Of a stretch of DNA of 64,000 nucleotides, positions 40,000 through 51,298 are shown piece by piece. The stretch comes from Rhabdaerophilum calidifontis (lineage in GTDB: Bacteria > Pseudomonadota > Alphaproteobacteria > Rhizobiales > Beijerinckiaceae): assembly GCF_008641065.1 (NCBI RefSeq), contig NZ_VTRS01000008.1, forward strand, positions 62,001 to 126,000. The letters are read 5' to 3'. The notes below the pieces were generated by a model. The model saw nothing but the letters and a program-made list of their open reading frames with translations. It did no database searches and was not told the origin of the DNA. The translations under genes and the position numbers were made by a program. The first letter of the stretch is position 1; the number at the start of each line of letters is the position of its first letter.

Positions 40000-41343
40000 A
40001 TGACCGATGATACGAGTCTTTCCTTCGCTTTTCCAGCCGTCGCCGGGCGGAAGATCACAGCCGCATTCGATGGCGGCCGACTTTCCTCGGACGGGGGTGT
40101 GATGCTTCTGGCTGCCGCCGCGCGTCGGATCGGCATTGCCGAGCGGCTTGCCGCCGCGATCCCCGATCGGCGCGATCCGACGCGCATCACGCACCCGCTC
40201 TCCCGGATCCTTCTGGCGCGCATCCTCGCCATCGCCTGTGGTTATGAGGATGCCGATGATCTCGATACACTCAGGACCGATCCCGCCCTGAAGCTCGCCT
40301 GCGGGCACCTGCCGGAGAGCGGCGCGGCGCTGGCGAGCCAGCCGACCGTATCCCGGCTCGAGAACACGCCGGCCCTTCGCGATCTCATTCGGCTTGGCCG
40401 GGTCATGGTCGATCTTTACTGTGCGAGCTATCCCGCCCCGCCCGAAGCGATCGTGCTGGATATCGACGACACGGTCGATGTCGTCCATGGCCACCAGCAA
40501 CTCTCGTTGTTCAACGCCCACCATGACGAGCGCTGCTTCCTGCCGATCCATGTCTATGATACCGCGACGTCCCGCCCCGTCGCTGTGATCCTGCGGCCGG
40601 GCAAGACACCCTCAGGCCGCGAGGGGCGCGGCCATATCCGCCGGCTGGTTCGTGCCATCCGCCGCCATTGGCCAAAGACCCGCATCACGATACGCGGGGA
40701 TGGCCATTATGGCCGGCCGGAGGTCATGGACTGGTGCGAGGCAAACGGCGCCGATTATGTCTTCGGCCTCACCGGGACAAAGGCGCTTGCCGCCAAGGTC
40801 GAGACAATCGCCGATGATATCCGCGTGACCCGCGCAACCGGCAACCAGGACACCGTGCGCGGCTTCACCGAGACGACCCATGCTGCTCGATCCTGGAGCC
40901 ACGAGCGGCGTGTCGCCGCCCGGATCGAGGCAACACCACTCGGTCTCGATATCCGATATATCGTCACCAGCATCACCCATGGCACGCCCGAATGGCTCTA
41001 TGCCGATCTCTACTGCGCGCGCGGGCAGGCCGAGAACCTGATCAAGCTCCACAAGAGCCAGTTGGCGTCCGATCGCACCTCCTGCCGCGCGGCCAACGCC
41101 AACCAGATGCGGCTCATCCTCCATACCGCCGCCTACTGGCTGATCCTCGCCGTCCGCGAGGCCATCCCGAAGGCTCAGCCCCTCGCAACAGCCGAGTTCA
41201 ACACCATCCGCCTCAGGCTCATCAAGATCGCCGCCCGCATCACCGAAAAGGCAACCTGCATCCGCATCGCCTTTGCCAGCGCCTGCCCGGATGCTGGCCT
41301 CTTCCGTCACATCGCGGGTGCACTCAAGGCCGCACCCTCATGA
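40000..41343 (+). CDS. IS1380-family transposase
   Basis: This is a DDE transposase of 447 residues. The catalytic regions are IVLDIDDTVDVVHGHQ (first Asp), ITIRGDGHYGRPEVMDWCE (second Asp) and YCARGQAENLIKLHKSQL (Glu). The opening SSDGGVMLLAAAARRIGI is typical of IS1380. The frame is intact. The IS256 insertion 77 bases before its start may have separated it from, or supplied, its promoter. Confidence 0.93.
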   Translation: MTDDTSLSFAFPAVAGRKITAAFDGGRLSSDGGVMLLAAAARRIGIAERLAAAIPDRRDPTRITHPLSRILLARILAIACGYEDADDLDTLRTDPALKLACGHLPESGAALASQPTVSRLENTPALRDLIRLGRVMVDLYCASYPAPPEAIVLDIDDTVDVVHGHQQLSLFNAHHDERCFLPIHVYDTATSRPVAVILRPGKTPSGREGRGHIRRLVRAIRRHWPKTRITIRGDGHYGRPEVMDWCEANGADYVFGLTGTKALAAKVETIADDIRVTRATGNQDTVRGFTETTHAARSWSHERRVAARIEATPLGLDIRYIVTSITHGTPEWLYADLYCARGQAENLIKLHKSQLASDRTSCRAANANQMRLILHTAAYWLILAVREAIPKAQPLATAEFNTIRLRLIKIAARITEKATCIRIAFASACPDAGLFRHIAGALKAAPS

Positions 41344-41513
41344 CCGAAGGGGCACGACGCCCCTCCTGAACCCGGTCCATCCCTCCAGCGCGTTCCCCCA
41401 TGTTCCAGTCCCTGAAGCGGTGAAAAACACGCAACGGAAACCCGCGTCCTACGCAAGCCGGAGATCGGCGAAGACCGGAACGAACCACAATGGTGAATAA
41501 GACAGGATAGTGG

Positions 41514-41539
41514 GGCGCCCAACAGAAAATCTGGGCGCC
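41514..41539 (-). terminator. Hairpin after the membrane chemoreceptor gene
   Basis: GGCGCCCA (41514-41521) and TGGGCGCC (41532-41539) form a perfect 8-bp stem 30 bases after the stop of the minus-strand chemoreceptor gene. No T-run follows, so termination strength is uncertain. Confidence 0.5.
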
Positions 41540-41568
41540 GTATCGATCGACACAATCGGACGCCGGCG

Positions 41569-43314
41569 TTACGCTGCGCGCACCTCGGCGAGGAACTTCG
41601 ACACATTCTCGCGCATGCTCTCGGCCTGCTGCGAGAGTTCCGTCGCGGCGCTCAGGACCTGGCTGGAGGCGGCTGCGGTGTTGCCGGCAGCACTCGAGAC
41701 ATGGGCGATCGAGCGGGAGACATCCTCCGTGCCTTGCGCGGCCTCACGCACATTGGAGGCAATCTCGAGGGTTGCGGTCTGCTGCTGCGCCACGGTGCCG
41801 GAGATCTCGGTGCTGACCCGGTCAATGGTTTGCAGGTTGCCATCGATGGCCTGGATCGAGTCGATCGTCGAGTTGGTGACACTCCGGATCTCGCTCACGA
41901 TCGTGGCGATGTCGGTGGTCGCCTTGGAGGTTTGCGCCGCGAGGTTCTTGACCTCGGATGCAACCACCGCGAAGCCACGGCCGGCTTCGCCAGCACGGGC
42001 GGCCTCGATCGTGGCGTTCAGGGCAAGAAGGTTGGTCTGCGCGGCGAGGTTGTTGATGAGCTCGACCACCGAGCCGATCTTGTCGGCTGCGATGGCGAGA
42101 GCCTGAACCTCGGTATCGGTTGCGCGCATCCGCTCCACCGCCGTGCGGATCGATTGGGTAGCGGCGCCCAGCTGCCGGGCGATTTCGCCAGCAGTGGCAT
42201 TGAGTTCCTCGCCCGCGGCGGCGACGCCGTTGACATTGGCGCTGGCCTGATGGGATGCGGCGGCGACGCTGGCCGCTTCCATCGTCGATTCCTGGGCCGA
42301 GTTCGAAAGGTCGTTGGCGGCTGCGGCGAGTTCGGTTGACGCGGACGAGATGGTCAACATGACGCTCTCGGCCGTTCGCTCGAAGTCGGCGATCGCGCTT
42401 TCGATGGCGCGCGCACGTTGCTCTTGCTGTTCGCGGCGGCGGGCCTCTTCTTCCTCCATCCGGTCATTGGCGATCAGGCCGTCCCGGAACGTCGCAAGAG
42501 CATGGGCCATATCGCCCAGCTCATCGCGCTGGCCTTCGGCGGGGATAGTGGTGGCGTAGTCCTTCGCCGCCACAGCCCGCATCGCAGCGGTCATCGCAAC
42601 GATGGGCCGGGCGATCGTCCTGAAGATCAGGAACACGACCGCGACAGCGATGAGCAAGGAAACACCGCCGAGGATCTCGTTCGCGATTTCCATATGGTCG
42701 ATGACGGCTTTTGCTTCCTTGGTTTCACCAACAAGAGTTGCAACCTGCCGCTTTGTGAGCCCCTCATCGCCCTTGCCGTCGCCCTCGATGATCTCGATAG
42801 CGCGGCGGGCCTTGGGCCCCAGCGTCTGCGTCAAAAGTTTGACCTGCTCGTCGCTGGCGCGGGTCCCGGGAGGGATCGAGGCCTCCAGCTTGTCCTGAAT
42901 GGAACGGATCTCAGACAGCAACGGGTCGAGTTCGGCCCAGCGCTGGCGATTGACCGGGTTCGTGAATGTCTTTGCCTCTTCGCGATAGGCGGCTCTGTGT
43001 TGTTCAAGCGATGTCCAAGACGACGCCCGTGACTCCCGGAAAGATTGTTCCCCCGAGAGCATATATCCGCGCATCGCGCCAAAAGAATCGGCCAACTCAA
43101 ACGCCATCGTTGCAAGATGCAGGACGGTTGGAAGGCGCTGGTCAATGACGTGATCGAGCTTCTGATCCGCCGATGCCACCTGCCGCATCGAGTAGACGAT
43201 CGAGGCGGCCATGGGTGTCAGCAACACCGCGAGCACCAGCATGATCTTGTAGGTCAACTTCAGGTTCGAGAACCAGTTCCCCCGGCCCCCGACATGCGAA
43301 ACAGCTTGTTTCAT
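41569..43314 (-). CDS. Membrane methyl-accepting chemotaxis protein
   Basis: This is a chemoreceptor of 581 residues. Membrane segments lie at about 24-44 and 214-236. Between them is a four-helix-bundle sensor. A HAMP domain follows ([18 protein letters not shown]) and then the signalling domain with [36 protein letters not shown]. The C-terminus has no obvious CheR/CheB docking pentapeptide. ATG at 43314 has a GGGGG box. The upstream DNA was hit by IS256 element 2 at 43400, leaving about 85 bases of original promoter region. Confidence 0.9.
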
Positions 43315-43407
43315 CGGTCATCCCCCAGCCAATAACCAGAGGTTGAGCGCAAATAGTGAATAGTTCCCTATGAATTTTGGCTCGCTCCGCGGATTTTTTG
43401 GGCCCTC

Positions 43408-44812
43408 GGTCACGTCCGTCAATGTGGTGTAATTTTCGGGTTTAGCGGAGGTGGCCATTTTCAGGCTGCCTTGGGTGTAATCTGAAGTGTAGGGAACGGG
43501 GCTGCGACGGCGGTCTGGTCGGCGAAGCCCTCGATCTGCATGTATCGGTTTTGTGTTTGCCATTCGTCGTTCTGCTCCATGAGGACCGCGCCGATCAGGC
43601 GGATTATGCTGTCCTCGTTGGGGAAGATTCCGACGACATCGGCGCGGCGCTTGACCTCCTTGTTCAGCCGTTCGAGCGGATTGGTACTGTGGAGCTTGGT
43701 GCGATGCTGGGCGGCGCATCCCATGTAGGCGAGGACATCATGCTCAGCCTCATCCATGAGCCGCGCCAGCTTTTCGAAGCGTGGCCGGAGCTGATCGGCG
43801 ACATGCCGCCAGACCTGGCCAGCGGCCTCACGATCAGGCTGGATGAAGGCCTGGCGGATGGCGGCGGCGACCATGGTGTGCTGGCCCTTCGGAACATGAG
43901 CAAGGGCATTGCGCATGAAGTGAACGCGGCAGCGCTGCCATGTCGCGCCGATCACGCGCTGGATGGCGGCTTTCAGGCCCTCATGGGCGTCCGAGATGAC
44001 GAGCTTGAGCCCCCGCAGGCCGCGCTTCATTAGCCCCTTCAGGAAGGTGGCCCAGAAGGTTTCGGCTTCCGAGGGACCAATGCCGAGCCCGACGATCTCG
44101 CGCCGGCCATCGGTGTTGGCGGCAACGGCGATTATCGCAGCGACCGAGACGATGCGTCCACCCTCGCGCACCTTGAGGTACGTAGCATCCAGCCACAGAT
44201 AGGGCCAGTCGCCTTCAAGCGGGCGGTCGAGGAAGGCTTTCACCCGCTCATCGATCTCCTTGCACAATTTGGAGACCTGGCTTTTCGAGATGCCGGACAG
44301 GCCCATCGCCTGCGCCAGTTCATCGACGCGGCGGGTCGAGACGCCGCCGATCCACGCCTCCTGGATGACCGCCACCAAAGCCTTCTCCGTCGTCTTGCGC
44401 GCCTCCAGGAACGGCGGGAAGTAGCTGCCGGCGCGCAACTTCGGGATTTTGAGGTTCAACGATCCCAGCCGCGTATCCAGCGTCCGGTCGCGATAGCCGT
44501 TACGCCAGGTCATGCGCTCGGCATTGCGCTCGTGCCGCCCGGCGCCAATCAGGCCATCGACATCGGCCTCCATCAGCAACTGCAACACGCTCTCGGCGAC
44601 AGTGCGGAGGAAATCCCCGTCGCCGGCCTTTTCCAGAAGATCATTCAGTGCAAGTCTCTCGTTGGTCATCGTGGCTCTCCGGTGAAGATGTGAAGTCGGA
44701 CAACTCCACCCTAAACCGCCTGTCGCGATGACCACCCCCGCTACACCGATCAGAGCGCGATTTTTGCGCCCCAAAATCCACCGGAAATTACACCACGTTC
44801 GGGGACGCTACC
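43408..44812 (-). mobile_element. IS256-family element 2 with 8-bp target duplication
   Basis: The element of 1405 bp has terminal inverted repeats that match over about 30 bp (GGTCACGTCC... and GGTAGCGTCC..., both leading to GTGGTGTAATTT). GGGCCCTC directly flanks both ends (43400-43407 and 44813-44820). It is unrelated in sequence to element 1 apart from family membership. It separates the chemoreceptor gene from the RsbQ-like gene. Confidence 0.92.
43461..44669 (-). CDS. IS256-family transposase
   Basis: This is an intact Mutator-type transposase of 402 residues, a different branch from the one at 38666. Catalytic regions are YLWLDATYLKVREGGR (Asp), LKLVISDAHEGLKAAI (Asp), CRVHFMRNALAHV (C-x2-H) and HSTNPLERLNKEVKRRADVVGIFP (Glu). 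The ATG at 44669 has an adequate GGAG box, and the upstream extension is not family sequence. Confidence 0.93.
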   Translation of the reverse strand: MTNERLALNDLLEKAGDGDFLRTVAESVLQLLMEADVDGLIGAGRHERNAERMTWRNGYRDRTLDTRLGSLNLKIPKLRAGSYFPPFLEARKTTEKALVAVIQEAWIGGVSTRRVDELAQAMGLSGISKSQVSKLCKEIDERVKAFLDRPLEGDWPYLWLDATYLKVREGGRIVSVAAIIAVAANTDGRREIVGLGIGPSEAETFWATFLKGLMKRGLRGLKLVISDAHEGLKAAIQRVIGATWQRCRVHFMRNALAHVPKGQHTMVAAAIRQAFIQPDREAAGQVWRHVADQLRPRFEKLARLMDEAEHDVLAYMGCAAQHRTKLHSTNPLERLNKEVKRRADVVGIFPNEDSIIRLIGAVLMEQNDEWQTQNRYMQIEGFADQTAVAAPFPTLQITPKAA

Positions 44813-44820
44813 GGGCCCTC

Positions 44821-45105
44821 CGATCTTCTTCTTCTTGCCCCTAAAGCAGTCGTTCGGTGTTGCGCGGGGGCTGCGCTGGAGCAGGAATTTTGACGACCAA
44901 GTGGATCGCGCGGCGCTTGTGACCGACCCTGAGACGTTTACAGTACGTTAACTTCAATTTTTGTCAGCGGTCGATCAGACGCCAATGGGACGCTAACTTT
45001 GGCACCTGACGGTCGGGTATCCCGCGCCCCGTCGGAATGATTTTTAAGGATTATAGTCCAGACATCAAGACACGGATCTGAGTTTGAGAGTGCCGAGACC
45101 CTTGA
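44821..45105. other. 285-base gap before the RsbQ-like gene
   Basis: There is no gene here. The right half is AT-richer and should contain the promoter of the RsbQ-like gene, but no clear -35/-10 pair was found. The left half follows the IS256 target duplication and is original flanking DNA. Confidence 0.5.
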
Positions 45106-45927
45106 ATGAACGCGCAAGGCCTGGTCAAGAAATTTGCAATCAAAACACTTGGCGCCGTCAGTGATCCCATGGTGTTTGCCCATGGAATGGGCTGCGATCA
45201 AACCATGTGGAAAGACGTTGCGCCCGCGTTTGTAAGCTCGAATAAGGTAATTCTCTTCGACTTAATGGGTTTTGGTAATTCTGATCGCGCAGGCTTCAGC
45301 TACGAACGTTACCAAACGCTCAACAATTATGCCGACGATTTCGTCGAAATCGCAGAACAGATAGGTCTTGAACCAGTTACATTCGTTGGACATTCCGTGA
45401 GCGCTATCATCGGTGTGCTCGCCGCCAAAAAACGTCCAGATCTCTTCAAACGCCTTGTCTTGATCGGACCTTCACCGCGTTACATCAATGACGGAGAAGA
45501 TTATTATGGCGGCTTTGAAGCAACAGATATTGAAGCCTTGATCGATGCGATGCGCTCAAACTACTTGGGATGGGCTCAGGATTTTGCGCCTCTTGTCATG
45601 GGCAATCCCGATCGTCCGGAATTCTCAGGGACTTTAGAAGCGAGTTTCTGCCGGACAAACCCGGTTTTTGCAGAATTTTTTGCGGCATTGACCTTCTGGG
45701 GCGACAACCGGGCAGATCTCGCTGATGTCATCACACCGTCGCTGATCATTCAATGTTCCGACGACCTGATCGCACCCAGAAACGTGGGGCGATACATCGA
45801 CGCAAAAATGCAAAATGCGACACTTGTCGAGCTCATTGCCGCGGGACACTGCCCCCATATGAGCCACCCGACCGACGTCATCAGAGAGATCAGAAATTAT
45901 GTTGGGTCGTCCGCAACCATCAATTGA
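45106..45927 (+). CDS. RsbQ-like alpha/beta hydrolase (ligand enzyme for a PAS partner)
   Basis: This is a 273-residue alpha/beta hydrolase closest in pattern to Bacillus RsbQ and the plant D14/KAI2 receptors. The triad is S97 in VGHSVSAI, an Asp at 219/220 in QCSDDLIAPRNVG, and H248 in AAGHCPHMSHP, almost the same numbers as RsbQ (96, 219, 247). MVFAHGMGCDQTMW is the oxyanion region. In Bacillus, RsbQ is needed to activate the PAS protein RsbP. Here the next gene, overlapping by 29 bases, starts with an RsbP-type PAS domain, so the pairing is conserved with a different output. Codon use is less GC-rich than in the left part of the window. Confidence 0.88.
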   Translation: MNAQGLVKKFAIKTLGAVSDPMVFAHGMGCDQTMWKDVAPAFVSSNKVILFDLMGFGNSDRAGFSYERYQTLNNYADDFVEIAEQIGLEPVTFVGHSVSAIIGVLAAKKRPDLFKRLVLIGPSPRYINDGEDYYGGFEATDIEALIDAMRSNYLGWAQDFAPLVMGNPDRPEFSGTLEASFCRTNPVFAEFFAALTFWGDNRADLADVITPSLIIQCSDDLIAPRNVGRYIDAKMQNATLVELIAAGHCPHMSHPTDVIREIRNYVGSSATIN

Positions 45928-48010
45928 TCGTGTTCAAAGTGCGGATGATTGGCATTGCGCGCCCTGCGCGCTTGCCGTTGTCGATAGCTCGTTTTCAATC
46001 GTAAGAGCCAATAAGGTCTTCCATCAACTTTCCGAATTGACTGAGAAAAATGTTGAAGGATGCCGTCTCTCACAAATTTTCTCTAAACCCAGTCAGATCT
46101 ATTTTGAGAGCATCTTGCTGCCGCTTCTGCACATCAAGGGATCGTGTCAGGAAATCGCGCTGACTATCCTAACCGAGCAGGAGCCAGCACCTGTTCTCGT
46201 TAACATAGCGGCTCGGCCAAATACGACGACGAGACTTTACGACATTATCATTTTCCCTGCGACTGAGCGACGTTCTTACGAAGAGCAACTATCAATTTTG
46301 AAAAGGGATGCCGAAAGACGGGCATCATGGCTTGCGCAACTCGAGACTCTTTCCGGTCTCGGTGCCTGGACCTATGAGATCAAAACGAAACGGATGCTGT
46401 GGTCTGACAGGATCTATGAGTTATACGGCATCGCCAAAGATGCCGAGGTCAGCCTCGAAGTGGCACTTCGTCCGCTTGCGCCTGAATTACGAAGGGCGAT
46501 CATGGCGTTCATTGACCGACCAGATGGCACCAGGGAACCGATGGTTCAAGAAGCCGACTTTGGCGCCCCGCCCGATCAAGTTCGTCGATTTAAAATTGTA
46601 GCGCAACACCGTCTGAACCATCTGGGAGAGCCCGTGATCCAGGGCTTCCTCCAGGATGTCACCGAAGCTCATCATCGTCAGATCGAACTATGGCGTGCAG
46701 CCCATATTGATCAGATGACGGGCTTGGCAAACCGGGCCTACTTCCAGAGCGAACTCGCTCGTCAGACCGAGACCAATGCGAACGATGTAACCATTGCTTA
46801 TCTCGATCTCGATCTCTTTAAGGACGTCAACGATCAATACGGGCATAGTGCTGGCGATGACTGTTTAGTGGAAATCGGCAAGCGGTTGCGGGCGCAATGC
46901 TCGGAAACCCAGGCCTTTGTTGCACGACTGGGCGGTGACGAGTTTGCCATCCTGTTCTTCGACAAAAAAGCAGACGAGATCGAGGATCTTGTTGGTTCGA
47001 TTATCGAATCGATCCGGCAACCCATCTGCCTGTCCAACGGGAACGAAGTGATCCTTGGTGTCTCCGTCGGGTTGGCTCGTTATGATAGCGACGACCTTAC
47101 CGCTTCCAGCGAAGTCCTACGACGAGCAGATCTTGCCATGTATGCAGCCAAGACGGCAGGGAGAAATGCTTTCGCCTGGTTTGATCTACGGCTGGATGTT
47201 GATCGGAAGAATACCAAGCAACTCGATCGCGACTTAAAACTGGCGCTCGAACAGGACGAGTTTTTCCTGGTCTTTCAACCTCAGTACAATCTTCACGATG
47301 GATCCCTTGTTGGGTTTGAGGCTCTTCTTCGTTGGCATCATCCGACCAAAGGGCTTGTTCCACCGCTTGAATTCATCCCGATTGCCGAAGCGAATGGGCT
47401 CATCCGCCCAATCGGGCGCTGGGTCATGGCGCGCGCTTGCGAATTTGCAAAGCGAATGCATGGCAACACGAAAGTTGCTGTCAATGTTTCAGCTCTGCAA
47501 TTCAGAGATCCTGACTTTGTCCCTTTCGTTCTTGAAGGGGTGAAATCACTTGATCTCGCGCATGGAGCGCTCGAGATAGAACTGACAGAAAGTGTGCTCT
47601 TGGAGCTTAATCCGACCTTCCAGGCCATGATTGAACGCCTACGTGCACATGGAATTACTATTGCCATTGATGATTTCGGCACCGGCTATTCATCTCTCGG
47701 TTACCTCTCCAAATTCCCATTCGATGTGATCAAAATCGACCGCAGCTTTATATCCGATCTCAAATCGAAAAACTCCCTTCGTATCCTCAGATCAATTATT
47801 GGCATGGGGAGTAGTATCAATAAGAAAATTGTCGTTGAGGGGATTGAAACTCTTGAACAGGTCGAATTTTTGAAATCATTCCAATCGCTTATTGCCCAGG
47901 GATATTTTTTTGGAAAGCCAGTCAAGCTCGATCAGGCGGTCGACATTGCAAGACAATCCGATCTGATGCGCTTTGGACTGCACCCTGTTTTGACCGGACA
48001 GTGGGCATAG
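45899..48010 (+). CDS. PAS-PAS-GGDEF-EAL c-di-GMP enzyme, 3' end replaced by IS sequence
   Basis: This is a 703-residue cyclic-di-GMP protein. An RsbP-type PAS (about 22-118, with KPSQIYFESILLPLLHIKGSCQEIAL) is followed by a PAS_3-like domain (about 150-258). The cyclase domain has an intact GGDEF at 345-349, but the RxxD inhibitory site before it is absent. The EAL domain has EALLRW at 474-479 and DDFGTGYSSLGYL, KIDRSFI and EGIE, so it may be active. The last residues (from about 692, HPVLTGQWA) are encoded by the left end of the IS3 element, so the natural C-terminus is lost, though after the EAL core. No membrane segment is seen. Confidence 0.88.
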   Translation: MLGRPQPSIDRVQSADDWHCAPCALAVVDSSFSIVRANKVFHQLSELTEKNVEGCRLSQIFSKPSQIYFESILLPLLHIKGSCQEIALTILTEQEPAPVLVNIAARPNTTTRLYDIIIFPATERRSYEEQLSILKRDAERRASWLAQLETLSGLGAWTYEIKTKRMLWSDRIYELYGIAKDAEVSLEVALRPLAPELRRAIMAFIDRPDGTREPMVQEADFGAPPDQVRRFKIVAQHRLNHLGEPVIQGFLQDVTEAHHRQIELWRAAHIDQMTGLANRAYFQSELARQTETNANDVTIAYLDLDLFKDVNDQYGHSAGDDCLVEIGKRLRAQCSETQAFVARLGGDEFAILFFDKKADEIEDLVGSIIESIRQPICLSNGNEVILGVSVGLARYDSDDLTASSEVLRRADLAMYAAKTAGRNAFAWFDLRLDVDRKNTKQLDRDLKLALEQDEFFLVFQPQYNLHDGSLVGFEALLRWHHPTKGLVPPLEFIPIAEANGLIRPIGRWVMARACEFAKRMHGNTKVAVNVSALQFRDPDFVPFVLEGVKSLDLAHGALEIELTESVLLELNPTFQAMIERLRAHGITIAIDDFGTGYSSLGYLSKFPFDVIKIDRSFISDLKSKNSLRILRSIIGMGSSINKKIVVEGIETLEQVEFLKSFQSLIAQGYFFGKPVKLDQAVDIARQSDLMRFGLHPVLTGQWA

Positions 48011-49240
48011 CTCGATAAGGCATAGGCATACGCCTATGATTATGACTATGAGTTCTGATCCGAATTTCTCGAAACCCCGCGTTGAGGTCATCACCTCGGT
48101 TCAGCGACGGCGCCGTTGGTCGGTTGCCGAGAAGGTCCGGCTTGTCGAAGAGACAATGCAGCCCGGCCATTCTGTCTCGCTGGTTGCGCGACGCGCGGGC
48201 ATCGCACCAAGCCAACTCTTCGCCTGGAAGCGGCGCATGCTGGAGGGCGGCACGGTCGCCGTCCAGGCCGATGAGGACGTTGTCGCGGCCTCGCGCATTC
48301 GCGAGCTCGAGAAGCGCGTTCGTGACCTTGAGCGCATGCTCGGCAAGAAAACGATGGAGGCTGAAATCCTCAAGGAGGCGCTGGCCATCGCGAACCCAAA
48401 AAAACAGGCCTTGCGGCTGAGCTCGTTCGACGAGGAGGGTTCGCCATGAAGACCGTCGCGGATGTCATGGGCGTCGCACGCTCCAATCTGGCCGAGAAGG
48501 CGAGACGGGACCAGCAGGCGCCTTCCCCGGAAAGCCCCTTTCCACGCGGCCCCTATGCGAAGCCGGAGGATATCGCGCTGTTGCCGGCGATCAGAGAGCT
48601 GGTGAGCGCGCGTCAGACCTATGGCTATCGCCGGATCGCGGCGCTGTTGAACCGGAAAAGGCGCAAGGAAGGCCTCGAGCCGGTCAATCGCAAGCGGGTT
48701 CTCCGCATCATGCAGGCCCACGCGATGGTGTTGACCCGGCATACCGCTTTGCGCCCGGCGCGAACCCATGAGGGTGTGGTCATTGCCCTGCGGTCAAATA
48801 TCCGCTGGTGCTCTGATCATCTCGAACTCACATGCCGCAACGGCGATATCGTCCGCGTGCTCTTCGTCATCGATGCCTGCGACCGGGAAATCATCGCCCA
48901 TTCGGCGGTCGCGCATGCTGGCAAATCCGGCGAAATGGTGCGCGATCTGATGGTGGAAGCCGTCGAGCGGCGCTTCGGAAATACGAAAACGCCGCATCCG
49001 ATTGAATGGCTCTCGGACAATGGCAGTGCCTACATCGCAAAGGAAACGGCCACAACGGCCACCGCGTTGGGCCTGACGCTTGCCTTCACCCCGGTGCGTT
49101 CGCCAGAAAGCAACGGCATCTCGGAAGCCTTCGTCAAAACCCTAAAGCGCGATTATGCCCGCTGCACCATCCTTCCCGAGGCAGAAACGACCCTCCGGTT
49201 GATCCCGGAATGGATCGAAGACTTGGCCTGCTGCCGGTTT
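47975..49240 (+). mobile_element. IS3-family (IS2-like) element, truncated at its right end
   Basis: The left end near 47975 (GGACTGCACCCTGTTTTGAC) matches the right end at 38371 read inwards. OrfA and OrfB follow. Homology stops near 49227, where about 25 foreign bases lead into another IS; the right inverted repeat is missing. A palindrome CATAGGC/GCCTATG at 48021-48038 lies just before OrfA, possibly near its promoter. Confidence 0.82.
48036..48449 (+). CDS. IS3-family OrfA
   Basis: This is the DNA-binding part of the IS3 transposase, 137 residues, with a helix-turn-helix (RRRRWSVAEKVRLVEETMQPGHSVSL across two blocks, then GIAPSQLFAWKRRML) and a leucine-zipper-like end (ELEKRVRDLERMLGKKTMEAEILKE). 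A run of seven A at 48398-48404 precedes the stop; slipping back one base there enters the OrfB frame with no stop in between, so an OrfAB fusion can be made. The ATGA overlap with OrfB is the other coupling route. Confidence 0.88.
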   Translation: MIMTMSSDPNFSKPRVEVITSVQRRRRWSVAEKVRLVEETMQPGHSVSLVARRAGIAPSQLFAWKRRMLEGGTVAVQADEDVVAASRIRELEKRVRDLERMLGKKTMEAEILKEALAIANPKKQALRLSSFDEEGSP

Positions 49241-49336
49241 TGTGGACACCGAGATTGGGTGTTTCATGAAGCCGGAGGTGGCATATGCAGCGAAGACGGT
49301 TTGGGCGTGAGTTCAAGGTCGAGGCGGTTCGCCTGA
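48446..49336 (+). pseudogene. IS3-family OrfB, C-terminus lost
   Basis: This is an integrase-type transposase subunit. The DDE core is visible (IRWCSDHLELTCRNGDIVRVLFVIDACDRE in blocks, IEWLSDNGSAYIAKE, and ESNGISEAFVKTLKRDY with Glu). Homology ends at EWIED; the copy at 38412 continues there with [12 protein letters not shown]. From about 49227 the frame reads into unrelated DNA and the next element, ending at 49336. The missing tail probably inactivates it. Confidence 0.82.
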
Positions 49337-49576
49337 TCAGGGAACGCGGTGTGAGCGTCGCCCAGGCGGCGCGCGATCTGGATGTTCACGAGAATGTCCT
49401 TCGCAAATGGGTGAAGGAATTGGCCGCCGATCCAGGGCAGGCATTTCCCGGACATGGCCAGATGAAGCCCGAGCAGCTCGAGATCGAGAAGCTGCGGCGG
49501 GAAGTCGCCAAGCTCAAGGCGGAGCGCGACATCCTAAAAAAGGCCGCAGCCTACTTCGCGAGGGACGTGACATGAG
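49241..49576 (+). mobile_element. Second IS3-family remnant (left end and OrfA only)
   Basis: It begins near TGTGGACACC at 49241 and contains an intact OrfA. OrfB is missing because IS66-type sequence starts at 49577. It belongs to a different IS3 branch from the element at 47975. Confidence 0.7.
49285..49575 (+). CDS. IS3-family OrfA (orphan)
   Basis: This is a 96-residue DNA-binding subunit with a helix-turn-helix (RRRFGREFKVEAVRLIRERG, then SVAQAARDLDVHENVLRKWV) and a coiled coil (EQLEIEKLRREVAKLKAERDILKKAAAYF in blocks). It ends in YFARDVT, typical for this group where OrfB normally overlaps. Since OrfB is absent it cannot transpose by itself. Confidence 0.85.
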   Translation: MQRRRFGREFKVEAVRLIRERGVSVAQAARDLDVHENVLRKWVKELAADPGQAFPGHGQMKPEQLEIEKLRREVAKLKAERDILKKAAAYFARDVT

Positions 49577-49714
49577 GTGTAACCATCCGGCGTGGGCCGC
49601 GGCTACGCTGCTTTCGACTCGGTTCGGATGGCTTTCCAGTTCCAAGGGAGCAACTCGGACAGGCGTTTCTGGGGCATGTCGGCGATGCGCGCCAGCGCAT
49701 CCGCAAGCCATACC
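49577..49714 (-). mobile_element. IS66-family right-end remnant
   Basis: An IS66-type end (GTGTAACC) at 49577 is followed on the minus strand by the last 37 codons of a TnpC transposase (WLADALARIADMPQKRL, then ELLPWNWKA, stop at 49603). The complete IS66 element begins directly at 49715 and cuts it off. Confidence 0.8.
49603..49714 (-). pseudogene. IS66 TnpC C-terminal remnant
   Basis: Only the C-terminal 37 codons of an IS66 TnpC remain, with the typical P-W-N-W close. The residues differ from those of the intact TnpC at 49727 (ADMPQKRLSELLPW versus [14 protein letters not shown]), so this is a different IS66 element. Confidence 0.8.
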
Positions 49715-49726
49715 GTAAGCGTCCGG

Positions 49727-51298
49727 TCACGCTTCTGACGGCATTGGCTTAATGTTCCAGGGGAGAAGATCGTCGATCCTGTTGATGGGGTGGTCGGCGA
49801 TGCGGCTGAGGACGTTTCGCAGATAGGCCTCCGGATCGAGGCCGTTGAGCTTCGCGGTTTCGATCAGTGACAGGATGCCGGCGGCACGCTCCCCGCCTTT
49901 GTCGGATCCCGCGAAGAGCCAGTTCTTGCGGCCGAGCGCGATCGGCCGGATGCTCCGTTCGGCCGCGTTGTTATCGATCTCGATGGTGCCATCGTCGATA
50001 AAGCGTCCGAGGGCTTCCCATCGGGTGATAGCATAGCGGATCGCCTCCGCCGTCCCGGACTTGCGCGGCAGTTGCTTCAACACCCCGTCCAGCCAGAGCC
50101 GCCAGGCCTCGAAGCGTGGCCTGATCTCCTGTTGCCGAACCTCCCGTCGTCGGTCAGGCGGGGCTCCGCGGATCGTGGCCTCGATATCGTAGAAGGCGCC
50201 GATATGCTGGAGGGCTTCCTCGGCAACGGGCGCGGGCCCGGCAACCGTCAGATCGAAGAACTTGCGCCGCACATGCGCCATGCACGCCGCTTCCCGGATC
50301 AATGCCGGCTCGCCATGCTTGCGCGGTTCGTAGAGTTCCCTGAAGCCGGCATAACCGTCGGCGTGAAGCACACCCCGGAAGGTCGCAAGATGGCCCCGGG
50401 GATGTTCGCCTTTGCGATCGGGTGAGTAGAAGTAACAGACAGCGGGCGGCACAGGATCGGCCCATGGCCGCCCGTCGCGCAGATAGGTCCAGAGACGACC
50501 GGTCTTGGTCGAGCCCTTGCCCGGCTCGAGAACCGGAACGGGCGTATCGTCCCCATGCAGCCGCTCTGCCGCGAACACATGATCCCGCAAGGCTCCGATC
50601 AGGGGGGTGAGCAACCCATTCGCCTTTCCGACCCAATCGGCCATCGTCGAGCGGGCAAGATCGACACCTTCGCGGGCATAGATCCCGGACTGGCGATAGA
50701 GCGGAAGGTGATCGCAGTATTTGCTGATCAGAACATGCGCGATGAGCCCCGGACCGGGCTTGCCGCGTTCGATCGGCGGCGCCGGCATCTTCGCGGTGAC
50801 CGTCGTATCGCACCCCTTGCAGACAAAGCGGTGCTGATGATGACGGACAACCCGGAACGAGGCCGGCACATAATCCAGTACTTCGCTGATCGTGGAGCCT
50901 GCCTTCAGGAAGTTCCTGCCGCCACAGGCCGGACAGGCGCAATCCGCCAGCTCGTGCACCACATCGTGACGCGGCAAGTGTTCCGGCAAGGGTTGACGCG
51001 ACGGCTTTGATCGGAGGGCTTCTCGTTCCCCGGCGGGGATGGGCGCGGCCCCTTCAGATGCCGAAGCCTCGATCTCTTCAAGCGCCAGTTCCAGCTGCTC
51101 GATGGCGCGATCGACCTTCTCAGAAGAAGCCCCGAAGCGTGAGCGCCGCAGTAACGCCAGTTGCGCCTTCAAGGTCTCGATCAGGCTGTCCCGCGCCTGC
51201 AATCGCCGGGTCTGTTCGGCCAGTTCGCGTGCTTGCGTCACGATGATGGCCCGGAGGGCATCGACGTCATCAGGCAGGTTGGAGGCAGCCGGGATCAT
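49727..51298 (-). CDS. tnpC: IS66 transposase TnpC
   Basis: This is the main transposase of 523 residues. An N-terminal leucine-zipper-like helix ([30 protein letters not shown] in blocks) is followed by a zinc-finger region ([21 protein letters not shown]) and the DDE domain with [20 protein letters not shown] and [22 protein letters not shown]. The frame is intact. It is the last gene of the element. Confidence 0.94.

Follow-up and report, generated by a model that had tools for sequence, protein, structure and literature searches.

The locus described here raises the question of whether an alpha/beta hydrolase of the RsbQ family and the protein encoded by the overlapping next gene, which carries two PAS domains, a GGDEF domain and an EAL domain, form one signalling system, and how the hydrolase could then set the level of cyclic di-GMP (c-di-GMP). 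The two genes lie in a stretch of 64,000 nucleotides from Rhabdaerophilum calidifontis (contig NZ_VTRS01000008.1, positions 62,001 to 126,000, forward strand), called the window throughout this paper, which belongs to a 131-kb contig of a 3.09 Mb genome. An earlier note on this DNA had proposed a two-gene switch with a c-di-GMP output. We consider it likely that the pair is a diverged member of the bipartite RsbQ-PAS sensing module, wired to c-di-GMP. The pairing of such a hydrolase with a PAS protein of c-di-GMP output was already published by Nadezhdin, Brody and Price (Nadezhdin et al., 2011; PMC3183031), who listed 45 adjacent RsbQ/RsbP-PAS pairs with a PPM phosphatase, a histidine kinase or a diguanylate cyclase as output. 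Because versions with EAL and with extra PAS domains are among those published, the window pair adds a somewhat divergent member to a known type of switch and does not found a new one.

The hydrolase and its catalytic triad

The hydrolase gene (45106..45927, + strand) encodes 273 amino acids and the PAS-PAS-GGDEF-EAL gene (45899..48010, + strand) 703. The overlap of 29 bases that had been claimed for them (45899..45927, + strand) was found, both open reading frames being present at these coordinates. Among solved structures the hydrolase matches RsbQ of Bacillus subtilis best (1wom, E 6.2e-85, phmmer), followed by Olei00960 (3qvm), the alpha/beta-hydrolase entry 7ukb and the plant KAI2/D14 receptors. 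In the alignment S97 (45394-45396), D220 (45763-45765) and H248 (45847-45849), all on the + strand, match the Ser, Asp and His of RsbQ; the serine is kept in 105 of 105 rows, and the aspartate and histidine in 104 each, the remaining row being a gap. The earlier note had named S97, D219 or D220, and H248; the serine and histidine stand, and the aspartate is D220 and not D219, since D220 aligns with the RsbQ Asp.

Domains of the partner protein

Pfam assigned GGDEF and EAL to the whole 703-residue protein and no PAS domain at E 0.001. Searched alone, residues 1-133 gave PAS matches below the Pfam cut-offs (PAS_4, E 2e-4), and residues 134-265 gave no Pfam PAS match. A profile built from three seeds, namely the window, its 95% identical counterpart in the same-genus genome G016 (L031) and L032, detects the first PAS domain (PAS1) in 79 of 80 loci with related hydrolases, the weakest at E 8e-4 (L109). 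An AlphaFold2 model of residues 1-265, computed from 34 sequences (mean pLDDT, the predicted local distance difference test, 84.6; predicted TM-score 0.59), shows strands and helices in the succession typical of two PAS folds, with a long helix (residues 121-152) connecting them. The best PDB matches of the modelled PAS-PAS part are tandem PAS sensors, LOV-HK (E 6.6e-17) and then DosP, NifL and FixL, at overall TM-scores of about 0.4, a low value that reflects a different or uncertain orientation of one domain to the other.

PAS1 comprises residues 15-120 (45941..46258) and contains an F-alpha helix at residues 63-80 (46085-46138). By model secondary structure and alignment, a helical linker of residues 121-152 (46259..46354) starts near RRSYEEQL and has no DIT motif, and the second domain, PAS2 (residues about 153-256; 46355..46666), terminates in a DVT motif; all four elements are on the + strand. 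PAS1 itself ends in FPATERRSYEEQ, again without DIT; the DVT sits in PAS2, not in the RsbP-type PAS. The previous assignment of an RsbP-type PAS domain with a SQIYFESILLPLL motif holds for the type of PAS1, with the caution that the SQIYFESILLPLL stretch departs from the family consensus R/K-I-F/Y-x-x-T-H.

The catalytic motifs of EAL phosphodiesterases are EAL, N, E, DD, K, E and Q; an active GGDEF cyclase is marked by GG(D/E)EF, the RxxD site being optional. The EAL domain (residues 444-674; 47228..47920, + strand) has E474 and the remaining six of its motifs, and the GGDEF domain (residues 268-423; 46700..47167, + strand) has an intact motif at residues 345-349, preceded at positions -9 to -6 by the tetrad ETQA in place of the RxxD inhibitory site. 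Judged by these motifs, the GGDEF looks able to act as a cyclase and the EAL as a phosphodiesterase, which agrees with the proposed output of c-di-GMP synthesis and breakdown. The suggestion that product feedback is probably missing is correct as to the absent RxxD; since the EAL is intact, the same protein could still remove c-di-GMP.

Several features of the published module are present: an RsbQ-family hydrolase directly upstream, a diguanylate cyclase-type output (GGDEF) and no DIT at the end of PAS1. The protein departs from the layout of a coiled coil between the PAS and a single output domain, as the second PAS separates PAS1 from the GGDEF; this does not exclude membership, because the 2011 paper lists members with multiple PAS domains and with EAL as exceptions.

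Recurrence of the pair and its outputs

A scan of species genomes with an alignment of six hydrolases gave at least 584 relatives, and the best 80 loci were kept. An RsbP-type PAS gene adjoins the hydrolase on the same strand in 78 of these 80, downstream in 77 and upstream in one (L085); in L077 it is divergent from the hydrolase, bringing the adjacent cases to 79, and in the stretch of L042 examined no RsbP-type PAS gene was found. The PAS profile for this survey was iterated on the same loci, and its seed-only round had already given 79. In the order of the window, a hydrolase at E up to 1e-30 was found in 25 of 397 genomes, the window included. A complete hydrolase of 45-66% identity is encoded at 19 loci, every one of them with a PAS neighbour, and the split hydrolase of G404 (L162) has one as well; two loci (G150, G051) are broken off at contig ends, and hydrolases of 35-36% identity in G080 and G085 (L160, L161) have no PAS neighbour. 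Flags for an internal TGA in two of the same-order hits (L118, L129) were merely the normal stop at the gene end.

Searches of the phylum and class added 19 further loci from the wider Proteobacteria, with a PAS within the 1.5-kb flank in 16 and none there in L205, L209 and L213, whose hydrolases are 34-40% identical. In a plasmid collection, hydrolases of this branch (E up to 1e-40) are present in 66 records, 24 of them typed as conjugative, whose hosts range from Streptomyces to Rhizobium and Phaeobacter, and a PAS neighbour was present in all 20 plasmid loci fetched out of the 66 records. The PAS starts 26-120 bases past the hydrolase domain in 36 of 36 new pairs (16 from the wider Proteobacteria and 20 from plasmids). 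The hydrolase is split into two frames or annotated genes on the NT-25 plasmid (L219), where the PAS kinase is split too, and likewise in G404.

The earlier note had suggested a survey for adjacent RsbQ-like hydrolase and RsbP-type PAS genes, and this adjacency does recur, in 79 of the best 80 loci of the scan and in every one of the 20 fetched from plasmids. These pairing rates disfavour the reading of the hydrolase as a metabolic enzyme. The two partners have also diverged together: pairwise identities of hydrolase and PAS1 correlate over 100 pairs (Mantel r 0.78, a value that ignores shared ancestry), and none of 2000 permutations reached this value, the largest being 0.15. Recurrence across phyla and co-divergence of the partners both support the two-gene switch with its c-di-GMP output.

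Among 102 partner proteins examined with Pfam (the GGDEF-EAL protein of L111/L144 being counted twice), HATPase_c is present in 61, HisKA in 52, the SpoIIE phosphatase in 23, GGDEF in nine and EAL in six (eight and five distinct proteins, respectively); a class III nucleotide cyclase and a protein kinase domain occur once each. The former is in Planktothrix paucivesiculata (L085; 3961-4935, 5001-5795), where the RsbP-type PAS is fused to a class III adenylate/guanylate cyclase domain and encoded upstream of the hydrolase, a gene order and an output outside the three classes given in 2011. The latter is in a metagenome-assembled genome of Myxococcales (L089:3774-4949), in which an RsbP-type PAS precedes the beginning of a protein kinase domain, possibly a Ser/Thr kinase output of the module that is likewise beyond those three classes.

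In G660, a genome of the same phylum as the window (one contig, 100% complete), a single frame of 585 amino acids comprises the hydrolase, an RsbP-type PAS and a GGDEF domain (L208:586-2340, - strand; L241). In a paralogue in G660 and in two relatives of the same genus the order is identical but a stop divides it into two genes, and the fusion frame occurs in one of 13 genomes of the genus. As a matter of gene structure, the fusion supports a direct coupling of hydrolase, PAS and c-di-GMP output, and it offers a natural template for modelling the hydrolase-PAS contact. The passages of the 2011 paper on "fused" or "fusion" mention no such single chain (PMC3183031).

Origin of the EAL domain

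Two near relatives of the pair have no EAL in the partner. In G330, a genome of the same order whose hydrolase is 66% identical, the partner is a PAS-PAS-GGDEF protein, and the two genes overlap by 29 bases if ATG is the start. The pair on plasmid p2 of Rhizobium rosettiformans (NZ_CP032407.1; L214) resembles that of the window in its hydrolase (63% identical), its PAS-PAS-GGDEF partner, its aliphatic residue at PAS position 59 (RsbP numbering) and its annotated overlap, also of 29 bases (L214: 6770-6798). It differs in that its partner lacks EAL and that it lies on a plasmid typed as conjugative, among signalling genes that include GGDEF-EAL and HD-domain proteins. The same-strand run there reads multi-PAS GGDEF-EAL, GGDEF-EAL, hydrolase, PAS-PAS-GGDEF, molybdopterin-binding protein, hybrid kinase with Hpt, and HD-domain response regulator; the EAL of its 396-residue GGDEF-EAL protein groups with other RsbQ-linked EALs.

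PAS1 and PAS2 of the window are closest to those of G330 and R. rosettiformans (51-63%, against at most 32% for the Phreatobacter and G029 proteins), and its GGDEF is only slightly closer to them (43-44% against 37-42%). The window EAL shares 40-45% identity with five of seven EALs fetched from other places in its genome, 28% with a sixth and no match with the seventh, and 33-36% with the RsbQ-linked EALs of Phreatobacter and G029. A tree constraint uniting the RsbQ-linked EALs was rejected by the approximately unbiased (AU) test (p 1.4e-5), and the corresponding constraint for GGDEF was not (p 0.195); the window and the Rhizobiaceae-type GGDEF group together with support 88/92. Because these relatives lack EAL, and because of these identities and AU tests, we conclude that the window EAL was gained independently of the other RsbQ-linked EALs compared, and the core looks cyclase-like in this lineage.

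Divergence at the putative interface

In B. subtilis, the alanine change of RsbP Y59 is null and disrupts the interaction with RsbQ (PMC3183031). The equivalent residue in the window is I72, within the F-alpha helix. Position 59 is H or Y in 94 of 102 PAS domains and I in the window, G016 and G330 only. Over 136 pairs, from which L144 (duplicate), L162 (split) and L141 (cut) are left out, it is H or Y in 122, I in three, V in one (L214), Q in five, S in two, and N, K and R in one each; the four aliphatic cases all belong to the clade of the window, G016, G330 and R. rosettiformans. Among nine diagnostic RsbP-PAS residues, the window keeps C10, Q53, E72 and P86, has aromatic replacements at F55 (Y) and C56 (F), and has changed L13 to A, L48 to F and Y59 to I, in a register set from the RsbP sequence and confirmed visually on locus L106.

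On the hydrolase side, the clade has M or L for F28 (F in 97 of 99 others) and N or D for G74 (G in 96 of 99 others); Y28 is commoner in later loci (4 of 36 pairs). In the hydrolase tree, from which L034 and L144 (duplicates), L162 (split) and L141 (cut) are left out, the window groups with G016 and G330 in a clade whose stem is long, at 1.01 changes per site (support 100 in the SH-like approximate likelihood ratio test, SH-aLRT); this clade adjoins other alphaproteobacterial c-di-GMP-linked hydrolases with modest support (86). It is a tentative thought, and one we would not bet on, that the clade, including the R. rosettiformans plasmid, has rebuilt its hydrolase-PAS interface into a private, orthogonal pair for c-di-GMP, possibly with a new ligand, standing beside chemoreceptor genes in three loci.

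PAS position 59 and hydrolase position 28 at first seemed to covary, but we do not put them forward as a contact. Among the initial 100 pairs, five of eight with an unusual residue 59 lacked F28, against 0 of 92; in 36 new pairs the figures were 2/6 against 4/30 (one a gap; Fisher p 0.26), and the pooled 7/14 against 4/122 (Fisher p 6e-6) owes its strength to the discovery set and to related rows. By mutual information with average product correction, this pair of columns ranks 854 of 29,719. Eight of the top 100 column pairs by mutual information link the F-alpha helix with the hydrolase lid, for an assumed extent of the lid, against 3.8 expected, a figure reached by 328 of 3219 circular shifts. 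Hydrolase E176 to T or V was dropped as a mark of the clade: E stood in 98 of 99 others, and T or A was then found in 4 of 16 new loci.

Between the window and G016, nonsynonymous divergence (dN) lies far below synonymous divergence (dS) in the hydrolase and in every domain of the partner. The ratio is low in the hydrolase (dN 0.026, dS 0.224) and in the EAL up to the G016 stop codon (dN 0.012, dS 0.233); the values are 0.021 and 0.110 for the GGDEF, 0.104 and 0.449 for PAS1, and 0.007 and 0.035 for PAS2. The uneven dS of PAS1 against PAS2 hints at recombination.

Proposed mechanism and alternatives

The hydrolase would bind and probably cleave a small ligand, and would contact PAS1 directly at the F-alpha helix and the linker that follows, altering the PAS1 dimer. 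From there the change could reach the GGDEF dimer by way of the helix at 121-152, then PAS2, then the DVT helix. The engaged state of the hydrolase is predicted to switch the cyclase on, because the partners in G330 and on the R. rosettiformans plasmid bear GGDEF as their only output; the separately acquired EAL would then lower or reset c-di-GMP in the lineage of the window.

Two models were given in 2011, one of ligand delivery to the PAS (Model 1) and one in which the hydrolase itself is the sensor (Model 2) (PMC3183031). Applied to the window, Model 1 would have the hydrolase make a hydrophobic product and hand it to the cavity of PAS1, the true sensor. The intact triad, the null phenotype of triad changes in B. 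subtilis and the standard PAS fold of the PAS1 model all suit it, but no ligand had been found on RsbP-PAS, according to the 2011 paper (PMC3183031), and we regard this alternative as rather unlikely. It is similarly doubtful that the phosphodiesterase dominates, with the GGDEF serving mainly as a GTP-binding regulator and the module lowering c-di-GMP. The closest solved match of the GGDEF-EAL part is the PDB entry "Motility regulator", the five top-scoring NCBIfam models are phosphodiesterases (all far under their cut-offs), and the EAL, with its motifs intact, has the lowest dN relative to dS among the four domains; the GGDEF motif is intact as well, however, the relatives in the clade have GGDEF only, and the G016 copy loses the end of its EAL. 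That the pair is a decaying import whose signalling is lost in the window genome is improbable: occurrence in 2 of 17 genus genomes, insertion sequence (IS) elements on both sides, the G016 stop codon and an altered C-terminal tail would fit, but both window reading frames are intact, dN/dS is low in hydrolase and EAL, and the tail changes after the EAL domain.

Membership in the RsbQ-PAS module with c-di-GMP output thus remains the reading we prefer, and several observations count against it. Two of the four alanine-null RsbP residues, L48 and Y59, are changed, to F and I; the pair is missing from 15 of 17 genomes of the genus; the G016 copy (L031:13707-15668), the nearest one on a chromosome, is interrupted in frame by a stop at codon 654, within the EAL; expression of the window copy may be altered, since IS elements stand on both sides; and the G660 fusion is a single gene, known from one genome and belonging to a different branch of the family. 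As c-di-GMP turnover is its only apparent job, the pair would give a direct read-out for finding the ligand and for the question of enzyme versus receptor, and the changed contact residues of the clade, together with the single chain of G660, provide tests of the residues that define partner choice.

Genomic context

The pair is found in 2 of 17 genomes of the genus, two of the 17 being under 90% complete. Its divergent neighbour in the window is a gene for a methyl-accepting chemotaxis protein (MCP; 41569..43314, - strand), whose counterpart also adjoins the pair in G016. Between this gene and the hydrolase stands an IS256-family (Mutator) transposase (43461..44774, - strand) with imperfect inverted arms (43407-43439/44781-44813), absent from this place in G016, where the pair lies between the MCP gene and a protoglobin-MCP (HemAT-like) gene (L031:12016-13377). 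Homologues of the latter (E up to 1e-60) are present in 15 of 17 genus genomes, the majority of which lack the pair. A Cache-domain MCP gene also adjoins the pair in G330. Because MCP genes lie close to it in the window, G016 and G330, a link with motility or chemotaxis is plausible, resting on three loci of which two are close kin.

Homology between the window and G016 stops at 47973, where an IS3-like element seems to have inserted, replacing the last ~12 codons after the EAL domain. The final ~12 codons and stop of the gene (47973..48010, + strand) are presumably the end of this element; for its other end, a 14-base pattern returned itself and three matches with three mismatches, about the number expected by chance. 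Four IS families (IS1380, IS256, IS3-like and IS66) occur in the 12 kb around the pair (40000-51298), and a plasmid search with 38500-62000 returned IS elements among the matches listed (15 of 79 records).

Comparison with known systems

Plant D14/KAI2 receptors belong to the same hydrolase branch, many of their structures matching at about E 1e-50 to 1e-55. Their partners are F-box proteins; here the partner is a PAS protein. A close parallel is RsbQ-RsbP of B. subtilis, which has a hydrolase of the same family with an aligned triad, encoded upstream of a gene that starts with an RsbP-type PAS, and in which the isolated PAS domain suffices to bind RsbQ and signalling depends on the triad of the hydrolase (PMC3183031). 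A recent AlphaFold2 model places RsbQ between the PAS domains and linkers (eLife, 2025; PMC12143880). The differences are that the output of RsbP is a PPM phosphatase in the sigma B pathway whereas the window protein has a second PAS, a GGDEF and an EAL, and that F and I stand at the positions equivalent to RsbP L48 and Y59. In 2011 the signal to which the RsbQ-PAS module responds was termed mysterious (PMC3183031), and neither a later answer to this nor a later experimental study of an RsbQ-PAS c-di-GMP pair was found in the open-access literature by titles and the beginnings of abstracts.

Three cyclase members of the 2011 set bear a C-terminal phosphodiesterase domain, and one protein, A1SX34 of Psychromonas ingrahamii, consists of an RsbP-PAS, another PAS, a cyclase and a phosphodiesterase, with the hydrolase upstream (PMC3183031). 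By that published description its architecture is identical to that of the window pair, which differs from modules of the A1SX34 type in its separate gain of the EAL, as judged among the other RsbQ-linked proteins compared. What is added beyond the 2011 account is a diverged, plasmid-linked sub-branch of the module with a changed contact residue and an EAL of independent origin, together with a single-chain version in another branch.

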